Source: Methanoregula formicica SMSP
GTDB lineage: Archaea > Halobacteriota > Methanomicrobia > Methanomicrobiales > Methanospirillaceae
Reading direction: 5' to 3'
DNA length: 64,000 nucleotides
NCBI RefSeq assembly: GCF_000327485.1
Contig: NC_019943.1
Coordinates: 2,542,001-2,606,000, forward strand
The notes under the pieces are model-generated. The model was not told the DNA's origin and made no database searches. It was given only the letters and a program-made list of their open reading frames with translations. Shown in pieces: positions 10,083 to 21,082 of the stretch. The translations under genes and the position numbers were made by a program. Every line of letters begins with the position of its first letter. Within the stretch, counting starts at the first letter, position 1.

Positions 10083-11771
10083 ATGGCAAAAGCAGCAAAG
10101 ATCGAGAGGACCCAGAAGCTCTTCCTGAAGGCAATGAAGGAGAAGTTCGCAGAGGACCCCCAGGCGCAGGCAACCGTCTTCAAGCGCGAAGGCCTTTCCC
10201 AGTCCCCGCGCAAGATGGAGTTCGTCAAGGCCGGCAAGGCAGCCGAGATGGACCGCGGTATCTCCATGTACGACCCGGCCCGCTGCCACTGCGGAGGTAT
10301 CCCGCTCGGCCAGCGCCAGCTGATGACCTACGAGATCAGCTCCACCGGCGTCTTCGTCGAGGGTGATGACTGCCACTTCGTCAACAACGCCGCCATGCAG
10401 CAGATGTGGGACGACATCCGCAGGACCATCATCGTCGGCCTCGACCTTGCCCACGGCACCTTACAGAAGCGTCTCGGCAAGGAAGTCACCCCTGAGACAA
10501 TCAACGAGTACCTCCATGTGCTGAACCACGCAATGCCCGGTGCAGCCGTTGTCCAGGAACACATGGTCGAGACCCACCCGTCCCTCGTGGACGACTGTTA
10601 CGTCAAGGTCTTCACCGGTGACGACGAGATGGCAGATGACCTCGAGCCCCAGTTCGTCTTAAACGTCGACAAGCTCTTCCCGGCAAAGCAGGCAGCCCAG
10701 CTCAAGGCAGCTGTCGGCAAGTCCATGTGGCAGGCTGTCCACATCCCGACCATTGTCTCCAGGACCTGCGACGGCGGAACCACCTCCCGGTGGTCTGCAA
10801 TGCAGATCGGTATGTCCTTCATCGGCGCATATAAGATGTGCGCTGGTGAGGCAGCAGTCGCTGATCTCGCATTCGCCGCAAAGCACGCCGGTGTCATCCA
10901 GATGGCAGACATCCTGCCCGCACGCCGTGCACGTGGCCCGAACGAGCCCGGTGGCATCAAGTTCGGCCACTTCGCCGACATGATCCAGTCCGACCGCAAG
11001 TACCCCAACGACCCCGTCAGGGCATCCCTCGAAGTAGTCGCTGGTGGCTGCATGCTCTTCGACCAGATCTGGCTCGGCAGCTACATGTCCGGCGGTGTCG
11101 GGTTCACTCAGTATGCAACCGCTGCATACACCGACAACATCCTTGACGACTTCACCAGCTACGGTGTCGACTACGTCAAGAAGAAGCACGGCGCTCTCGG
11201 CAAGGTCAAGGCAACCCAGGACGTTGTCAACGACATCGCTTCCGAGGTCACCCTCTACGGTATGGAGCAGTACGAGGAGTTCCCGACCACGCTCGAGTCC
11301 CACTTCGGCGGCTCCCAGCGTGCAACCGTCCTCGCCGCAGCATCTGGTGTCTCAACGGCACTCGCCACGGCAAACTCCAACGCTGGTCTGAACGGCTGGT
11401 ACATGTCCATGCTCATGCACAAGGAAGCATGGTCACGTCTCGGCTTCTTCGGCTACGACCTGCAGGACCAGTGCGGTTCCGCAAACTCAATGTCCGTCCG
11501 GCCCGACGAGGGTCTGCTCGGCGAGCTCCGTGGACCGAACTACCCGAACTACGCAATGAACGTCGGACACCAGGGTGGATACGCCGGTATCGCCGGTGCA
11601 GCACACATTGCCCGCGGCGATGCCTGGGCACTGTCCCCGCTGATGAAGATCACCTTCTCCGACCCCTCGCTCAAGTTCGACTTCTCCGAGGTACGCCGCG
11701 AGTTCGCAAAGGGTGCAATCCGCGAGTTCATGCCTGCCGGCGAGCGCTCGCTCATCATCCCCGCGAAGTAA
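10083..11771 (+). CDS. mcrA: Methyl-coenzyme M reductase alpha subunit (McrA)
   Basis: The 562-residue catalytic subunit and the standard methanogen marker. Active-site segments include [38 protein letters not shown] and [20 protein letters not shown]. The motif [17 protein letters not shown] holds the glycine (residue 457) that corresponds to thioglycine and the cysteine (464) that corresponds to S-methylcysteine in the Methanothermobacter enzyme. The modification enzymes themselves are not in the window. Only one mcr operon is seen here. A T-rich terminator and hairpin array follow within 25 bases. Confidence 0.99.
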
Positions 11772-11793: not shown

Positions 11794-11911
11794 TTTTTTC
11801 TTTTTTTTCCGACAGGTTCGAAGAGCCTGCGGCTCTTCTCTTCCTCAACCTTCCAAGGAAGGTTTCGGATTCATCAGACCTGGAGGACGAGAAGAAACCG
11901 CAGGTTTCTTC
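11794..11911 (+). terminator. mcr terminator: T-tract followed by a three-hairpin array
   Basis: Twenty-two bases after the mcrA stop, a T-rich tract (11794-11808) is followed by three hairpins. The first is GAAGAGCC/GGCTCTTC with loop TGC (11820-11838). The second is AACCTTCC/GGAAGGTT (11847-11864). The third is GAAGAAACC/GGTTTCTTC with loop GCA (11891-11911), then GAATT. The third shares its outer arms and loop with hairpins after mtrH (20864-20944). The T-tract alone could be an archaeal terminator; the hairpins suggest an additional role in transcript stability or a small RNA. Confidence 0.6.
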
Positions 11912-12503
11912 GAATTAATATCGTGATTGCGGGTGCGATTACAAACGTAACCCCATATCCTGATTTCATTTTCACAATCAACAGGTCCTTGACCAGAAGC
12001 ATGAGAAGAAACCCCCATGCTTTTTTTGGATCACGATTCCGATCGCTAAAAAAAATTCCCGGCCGGTTTCAAAAAACACTCATCCCCTGCCCGACCCCCC
12101 TTGGCTTCCCATGGACAAAAATCCCCGCGTTTTCCGAAGAGATTTCCACTGGAAATTAAGGTCTTTTTTACCACTAGCAAAAGGGGGGTTGGGCAGAGGC
12201 AGGATTTTCGTTCGCGGAACAGGGGCGATCTTTTTTGCAGTAAATTCCTGGGGAAACACCGGCTCGGGCAGGCTGGTCTGATCATCAGTCAGGGGTCAAT
12301 AATAACTCTTTTTACAAAATTTCAGAAGGATTGAAGAGATTCTCCCGGGAACGTAAACGATACAATAAGCTGAAAAAAAAGTGAACCGACCGGGATTTTT
12401 TTTACAATCGCGATCACAAAAAGGATGAATTACCCCAGCCCGACCCCCCTCACGGCCCTGCCGGCAGGTACAATGGTGGAGAGAAAAAAGGAGGGGAAGA
12501 ACC
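11912..12503. other. Non-coding stretch with T-runs, hairpins and a repeated C/G-rich element
   Basis: No credible gene was found here. It contains GCATG/CATGC followed by seven T (11999-12027), which is terminator-like, ATTTCC/GGAAAT (12143-12157 area), and several runs of six to eight T or A. A 16-base C-rich element at 12087-12102 recurs inverted at 12181-12196 with one mismatch, and a third direct copy is near 12437-12450. A small RNA or the remains of a decayed region are both possible. Confidence 0.4.
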
Positions 12504-19788: not shown

Positions 19789-20826
19789 ATGTTCAGATTT
19801 GAAAAAGAACAGAGTGTCTGGGACTTCAACGGCACCAAGATTGGTGGACAGCCCGGCGAGTACCCGACCGTACTGGGTGCCTCAATCTTCTACAACAAGC
19901 ATGAATGCGTACTTGATGACAAGAAAGGCACTATCGACAAGGCAAAGGCAGAAGCACTCTGGAACCGCTGTCAGGTTCTTTCTGACGCAACCGGTATTCC
20001 GCACTTCATCCAGATCATCGCGGAATATGGAGAGGCATTTGAGAGCTACTTCAACTGGTTTGACTCGATCGACAACAAGACCGCGTTCCTGATGGACTCG
20101 TCCGTGCCCACGGCACTTGCCCACGCATGCAAGTACGTGACCGAAGTCGGTCTCGCAAAGCGTGCGATCTACAACTCGATCAACGGTTCAATCCTGCCGG
20201 AGAGCATCGAGGCACTCAAGAACAGTGATGTCGACGCAGCAATCGTCCTCGCCTTCAACCCTGCTGACCCCTCGGTCGCAGGAAGAGAGAAGGTGCTCGT
20301 AGAGGGCGGTGTTGCAGGTCAGACCAAGGGTATGCTCGAGATCGCAGAGTACTGCGGTATCACCCGCCCGATTCTTGACACTGCAGCAACCCCGCTCGGC
20401 CTTGGAAGTGGCGGCGCATACCGTGAGATCCTTGCCTGCAAGGCAATCCACGGTTACCCGACCGGTGGTGCATACCACAACATGACCGTATCCTGGACCT
20501 GGCTCAAGCGCTGGAAGGGAACCTCAAAGACACCTTCCGTGCTCGCAGAGGGATACAAGGGCAAGGATACCCTGCTCCAGCAGATGTCCCACCACTACCT
20601 TGGCGGTATTGAGGGCATCAAGCAGGCTGCATGGTCCGCACCCGATATCGGCTGCAACATGATTGCCTCCACTCTCGGTGCAGACCTCATCATGTACGGA
20701 CCCATCGAGAACGTAGAAGCAATGATCACGGCACAGGCCTACACGGACATCACCGTCCTTGAGGCAACCCGCCAGCTCGGGATCGAGTGCAAATCAGAAA
20801 GCCACCCAATCTTTAAACTCATTTAA
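19789..20826 (+). CDS. mtrH: Tetrahydromethanopterin S-methyltransferase subunit H (MtrH)
   Basis: A 345-residue soluble subunit that transfers the methyl group from methyl-H4MPT to the cobamide of MtrA. It begins MFRFEKEQSVWDFNGTKIGG and includes PLGLGSGGAYREILACKAIH and SAPDIGCNMIASTLGADLIM, strong MtrH signatures with a TIM-barrel methyltransferase fold. The ribosome site GGAGGTG at 19773-19779 is ideal. It is the last gene of the operon; a T-run follows one base after its stop. Confidence 0.98.
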   Translation: MFRFEKEQSVWDFNGTKIGGQPGEYPTVLGASIFYNKHECVLDDKKGTIDKAKAEALWNRCQVLSDATGIPHFIQIIAEYGEAFESYFNWFDSIDNKTAFLMDSSVPTALAHACKYVTEVGLAKRAIYNSINGSILPESIEALKNSDVDAAIVLAFNPADPSVAGREKVLVEGGVAGQTKGMLEIAEYCGITRPILDTAATPLGLGSGGAYREILACKAIHGYPTGGAYHNMTVSWTWLKRWKGTSKTPSVLAEGYKGKDTLLQQMSHHYLGGIEGIKQAAWSAPDIGCNMIASTLGADLIMYGPIENVEAMITAQAYTDITVLEATRQLGIECKSESHPIFKLI

Positions 20827-21082
20827 TTTTTTTTCTCCGAGAGGTCGCAGACCTCGAGGAAGAGAAGAAATTCATCAGAATTTCTTCGAATTGGTGAGGG
20901 TTTGAAGAACCCGAACCAGGAGAAGAACTGTGCAACAGTTCTTCGACTTGCGAAGAACCTTACTCAACGATATTTCTTCGAGTTCCAAGATATCACAGAC
21001 CTCGTGGTGGAGAGGCCTCGCCAGCGCTTCAACATATTGAAAAAACTCCTGAAAAAAGAGAACTACTTTTCGCCCTTCCGTC
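20827..21082 (+). terminator. mtr terminator and hairpin array, related to that after mcrA
   Basis: Directly after mtrH, eight T (20827-20834) are followed by hairpins: GAGGTC/GACCTC with loop GCA (20841-20855); GAAGAAATTC/GAATTTCTTC with loop ATCA (20864-20887) then GAATT; GGGTT/AACCC (20898-20912); and GAAGAACTGT/ACAGTTCTTC with loop GCA (20922-20944) then GACTT. A weaker CGAAGAA...TTTCTTCG pair lies at 20951-20980. Outer arms and loops match hairpin three after mcrA while inner arms change on both sides. The last 80 bases before the TPR gene end show nothing clear. Confidence 0.62.

Follow-up and report, generated by a model that had tools for sequence, protein, structure and literature searches.

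Why do hairpins of one family follow both mcrA and mtrH in Methanoregula formicica SMSP? A sequence-only reading of the window, the whole 64,000-nucleotide stretch analysed here, took them as a sign that structure is under selection where the mcr and mtr operons end. The hairpins themselves are there as described. Behind mcrA, whose stop codon lies at 11769-11771, the window carries GAAGAGCC-TGC-GGCTCTTC (11820-11838) and GAAGAAACC-GCA-GGTTTCTTC (11891-11911); behind mtrH it carries GAAGAAATTC-ATCA-GAATTTCTTC (20864-20887) and GAAGAACTGT-GCA-ACAGTTCTTC (20922-20944). The pattern GAAGAAN{2,20}TTCTTC occurs four times in the window, against a mean of 0.12 and a maximum of one in 100 dinucleotide-preserving shuffles. 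We consider it highly likely that these hairpins belong to a small, mobile, non-autonomous double-hairpin repeat of intergenic DNA, restricted to one genus, and are not a transcript ending of methanogenesis operons. A repeat of about 54 bases, present in more than 100 copies and in few Methanoregula species, points to a small jumping element and away from a special methanogenesis ending.

The double-hairpin unit

Comparison of the flanks of the copies reveals that the GAAGAA...TTCTTC palindrome is one half of a larger, oriented unit. This unit spans about 46-57 bp (typically about 54) and consists of TCCGA, hairpin 1, GAGGAnGA, hairpin 2 with outer arms GAAGA/TCTTC, and a closing GA. Hairpin 1 mostly has 6-7 bp, while hairpin 2 is made of GAAGA plus variable pairs. 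GA dinucleotides border each stem, and the loops are short, mostly GAA, ATCA, GGAT, GCAA or GCA, which makes them GNA/GNNA-like in one orientation of the unit. TCCGA, GAGGAnGA and GAAGA/TCTTC are constant and the inner stems variable. Pairing of TCC with GGA around GA/GA can form an outer helix, and compensated variation in this helix is found in the related genome G031 too, in a model-fitted alignment. The unit ends, TCCGA and TTCGA, hold no inverted repeats of useful length. From 20 copies we built a covariance model, R1, which together with the predicted folds and the comparison with G031 gives the following features in the window:

11794-11808, plus strand: T-tract 3' of the mcrA stop, upstream of the units; probably the terminator, judging from its sequence and from the T-tract in relatives that lack the unit
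11808-11913, plus strand: outer unit of two hairpins downstream of mcrA, split within the hairpin-1 loop; the G031 counterpart is uninterrupted
11817-11870, minus strand: inverted unit of 54 bp inserted in the outer unit, from the R1 match and comparison with G031
20827-20834, plus strand: T-tract that directly follows the stop codon of mtrH (20824-20826) and precedes the units, from the sequence
20836-20889, plus strand: first mtrH unit, from a model match of 60.5 bits and the fold
20895-20946, plus strand: second mtrH unit, from a model match of 31.2 bits and the fold

Positions 11808-11913 are one unit carrying a second unit inside, and each of the mcrA hairpins is half of a two-hairpin unit. 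The outer unit has hairpin-1 arms CAGGT (11813-11817) and ACCTG (11878-11882), the linker GAGGACGA (11883-11890), hairpin 2 (11891-11911) and GA (11912-11913). The inserted unit, matched by the model at 11818-11869 with 53.2 bits, has its hairpin 2 at 11820-11838, its linker at 11839-11846 and its hairpin 1 at 11847-11864. Behind mtrH, the first unit runs through TCCGA, hairpin 1 (20841-20855), GAGGAAGA, hairpin 2 (20864-20887) and GA. In the second, hairpin 2 occupies 20922-20944 and hairpin 1 is GGGTT(TGAAG)AACCC, enclosed by TTGGT/ACCAG around GA/GA. At both operons the units start downstream of the respective T-tract. Downstream of the mcrA hairpins, at 12087-12205, lies a long, widely spaced inverted repeat (CCTGCCCGACCCCCCTT and AAGGGGGGTTGGGCAG) with a counterpart in G031; it is possibly another small element.

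Distribution and probable movement

The family is genome-wide. The palindrome pattern is found 118 times in the genome (G000, 2.82 Mb), against 16 occurrences of the reversed control pattern. It is also enriched in the same-genus genomes G031 (114), G019 (73), G014 (61), G029 (47) and G002 (44), while the remaining genomes of the genus hold 3-18, most near their controls. The repeat family has expanded patchily. The R1 model recognises at least 131 distinct units in the 620 kb of G000 sequence searched. Scored over whole genomes, with about 96 candidates per genome so that the high counts are lower bounds, it finds at least 95 copies in G000, 98 in G031, 77 in G014, 61 in G019, 49 in G002 and 48 in G029, and 0-8 in the rest of the 36 same-genus genomes, six of which are thus high-copy. 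In a tree of mcrA and mtrH, G000, G031, G002 and G019 form a clade, and the high-copy G014 falls outside it. Scanning 84,980 species with a strict unit signature gave hits in 74 stretches; every one carries a Methanoregula or Methanomicrobiales label, and none is on a viral contig. The unit has no match in Rfam 15 at the gathering threshold; microRNA matches below it we ascribe to chance similarity with a long hairpin. In the literature searched, which lay mostly outside subscription journals, we found no description of such Methanoregula repeats.

Do the units move? One case is the mcrA locus itself. In G031, whose McrA is 97% identical, the sequence behind mcrA reads CCGACAGG^TCATCAGACCTGGAGGACGAGAAGAAACCGCAGGTTTCTTCGAATTAATATC and contains one intact unit; relative to it, G000 carries a clean 54-bp insertion at ^, an inverted unit placed in the hairpin-1 loop. 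G019 has a degenerate unit at this site (17.9 bits). Eight readable genomes of the genus (G002, G034, G001, G021, G011, G018, G025 and G029) have no unit behind mcrA, while the T-tract after the stop is kept in relatives without the unit; the contigs of G014 and G015 end too early for this comparison. On the evidence of these relatives we rejected a conserved mcr/mtr 3' element, and with the genome-wide spread they leave the proposal of selection on RNA structure specific to these operon ends unsupported. A second difference is a 57-bp unit in G031 whose matching site in G000 is free of it. Other unit-sized insertions, of 46-54 bp, mostly separate paralogous sites. Indels of this size range, 46-57 bp, show the two hairpins of a unit travelling together. 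Insertion junctions have 0-2 extra bases, some repeated, though not consistently.

The intergenic arrays of G000 and G031 are strongly different, although most of the DNA around them aligns at 85-95%. Arrays 180-380 bp long are repeated at dispersed sites with 70-92% identity. Searching by pattern for other nested insertions returned the mcrA case alone; nested-like arrangements at L095, L036 and L039 were read from alignments only. Only a few of the insertion events rest on a comparison of orthologous sites, where the difference may be a gain or a loss of units, and unequal recombination could add or remove units in arrays as well. G031 has, at L182:2415-3130, double-hairpin units repeated in tandem almost perfectly every 60 bp. 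A hairpin-rich 51-bp insertion of different sequence distinguishes L058:2994-3045 from L064, which suggests that the same genome holds more classes of such units.

Gene ends, covariation and rival explanations

With genes called by codon usage, only seven of 131 units lie within called genes. Convergent gaps make up 28 of the 64 unit-bearing gaps and nine of the 61 control gaps (p=0.0004); the others are 29 tandem and 7 divergent with units, 37 tandem and 15 divergent without. The unit regions had been selected for carrying hairpins, and the controls came from the window and five arbitrary 20-kb stretches. This enrichment is a real but weaker link to 3' ends, which fits promoter avoidance too. 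In tandem gaps, 28 units have the orientation of the genes and 25 the opposite one (p=0.78), so there is no preference. A T-run follows at only 4 of 262 unit edges, and at 57 of the 85 gene ends that face a unit a T5 run comes between the stop and the unit. These results, together with units that begin past the T-tract, tell against the hairpins being a mark of mcr and mtr 3' ends.

They bear also on the idea that the hairpins are transcription terminators, bidirectional between convergent genes. The convergent enrichment would suit such a role, as would a palindromic hairpin 2 that is usable from both strands. Archaeal transcription, however, terminates at U-tracts, and a hairpin is not strictly needed (PMC8716108); the T-run that stands right after the hairpin in bacterial-type intrinsic terminators is nearly always missing here, and the gene's own T5 run usually comes first. 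We regard terminators as a very improbable explanation.

The observation that the inner arms change on both sides while pairing is kept was borne out. In 20 copies picked for clean stems the covariation score was 0.45, against 0.13 in shuffles and at most 0.11 in slid controls. Compensated pairs were confirmed in G031, where 69 distinct copies scored 0.46 against 0.135 in a model-fitted alignment that leans towards the model. When the hairpins are anchored by linker and outer arms alone, Watson-Crick pairs make up 282 of the 311 inner pairs of hairpin 2 (52 distinct hairpins from G000 and 26 from G031). G-T mismatches outnumber A-C mismatches by 12 to 5 in these stems, an excess that points weakly to RNA rather than DNA.

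Does such covariation imply a structured RNA? A 3' UTR element of highly expressed operons, acting as stabiliser, processing site or protein-binding hairpin with its fold under selection, would account for the strong covariation, and it could draw as well on the GNA/GNNA-like loops in one orientation, the enrichment between convergent genes and the unit-like hairpins, now degraded, that several species carry downstream of mtrH. Some selection could indeed be reflected in the latter, and a secondary function is best sought in these older, partly degraded copies. We nevertheless judge a structured RNA improbable as the explanation of the family, given units without orientation preference and mostly past a T-tract, eight relatives without a unit behind mcrA, no Rfam family at the gathering threshold, and the patchy behaviour of a repeat across the genome. 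That copies of a mobile repeat covary is by itself no proof of selection or RNA function. G000 and G031 share a long, almost identical array at L039/L180, yet one hairpin 2 in it is wholly different (GAAGAACCCGTCAGGGTTCTTC versus GAAGATTTTCCATCGGGTAAATCTTC) between near-identical flanks, and the second of these two types is similar to hairpins found in other units. Whole-hairpin replacement therefore probably explains part of the covariation, as far as few loci can tell; single uncompensated stem changes are seen as well. For RNA work this is a caution, since paralogous repeats can covary without RNA function thereby being shown. The units after mcr and mtr most likely reflect insertion into permissive DNA past the T-tracts.

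Mobilisation and likeness to known repeats

What would move such a repeat? Short, high-copy, extragenic palindromes in inverted or clustered arrangement, patchy among relatives, recall the bacterial REP, REPIN and BIME elements (PMC2817692, PMC3116915, PMC3733652), and G000 has inverted unit pairs at mcrA and L049. REP/REPIN elements moved by a Y1 (RAYT) transposase are nonetheless a most unlikely identity. Y1_Tnp (PF01797) had no match in the four high-copy genomes searched, the complete G000 and G002, G014 and G019. The Methanoregula unit also differs in its two hairpins, its constant linker, its variable self-complementary stems and its archaeal host; its stem sequence is not conserved, and its constant tag is GAGGAnGA in place of an end tag GTAG or CGTC. 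Reverse transcriptase (PF00078) had no match in any of the six high-copy genomes and was dismissed as the mover. Among the genes beside arrays we recognised no recurrent transposase-like gene, and the few recurrent neighbours, which lack Pfam matches, are at most candidate mobilisers. A small protein family (MADFVQKTVVKSAVRKLAAP...), itself without a Pfam match, recurs near hairpin arrays at L095:3178-3681, L088:4551-5117, L053:3515-4111 and L057:1993-2511.

Fungal mitochondrial double-hairpin elements and the repetitive hairpin-forming elements of sponges are likewise small, intergenic and scattered among close relatives, and are thought to be mobile by an uncertain mobiliser (PMC2800124). 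Like the mitochondrial double hairpins, the Methanoregula unit has two hairpins with a short linker, lies between genes and is present or absent between relatives. In the sponge elements the stems are conserved and the loops vary (PMC2800124), whereas here the linkers are constant and the stems vary with pairing kept. Because one resides in an archaeal chromosome and the others in mitochondrial genomes, the likeness is an analogy only. MITEs are also small, non-coding, dispersed and presumably non-autonomous, but they measure 70-300 bp with terminal inverted repeats of 15-30 bp (PMC3733652), and the unit of about 54 bp has neither terminal inverted repeats nor a clear target duplication. We see in the unit a variant, found in an archaeon, of small mobile repeats of the REP/BIME or mitochondrial double-hairpin type; by the tests made, it stands outside the RAYT-associated REP family.

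As a mobile repeat, the unit would go in as one piece between genes, frequently next to or inside other units, and so build tandem and inverted arrays. Being non-autonomous, it would be moved by an enzyme acting in trans, which may recognise a folded single strand, most likely of DNA, by its constant parts (linker, GA flanks and outer arms); that single-stranded DNA is the intermediate is a guess. Stems would stay self-complementary if whole hairpins are copied, swapped or restored to perfect pairing, and mcr or mtr RNA would be affected, if at all, only as a by-product of insertion past the T-tract. A more specific version, in which the signal is the folded double hairpin, its linkers constant and its stems exchangeable, the mover is an enzyme other than a Y1 transposase or a reverse transcriptase, and a unit can insert into the hairpin-1 loop of another unit, seems doubtful to us. 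The tempting reading as an RNA signal of methanogenesis operons gives way to that of a mobile repeat by which the intergenic DNA of one methanogen genus is reshaped. With its variable stems and constant linkers, the family could reveal how perfect pairing is maintained in small hairpin elements, and whether archaea move REP-like DNA with an enzyme that is not a Y1 transposase.

Elsewhere in the window, the minus strand at 41023-41107 matches the Rfam L4-Archaeoglobi ribosomal protein leader with 48.1 bits (cut-off 34.5), in a host that is a methanogen of another lineage.
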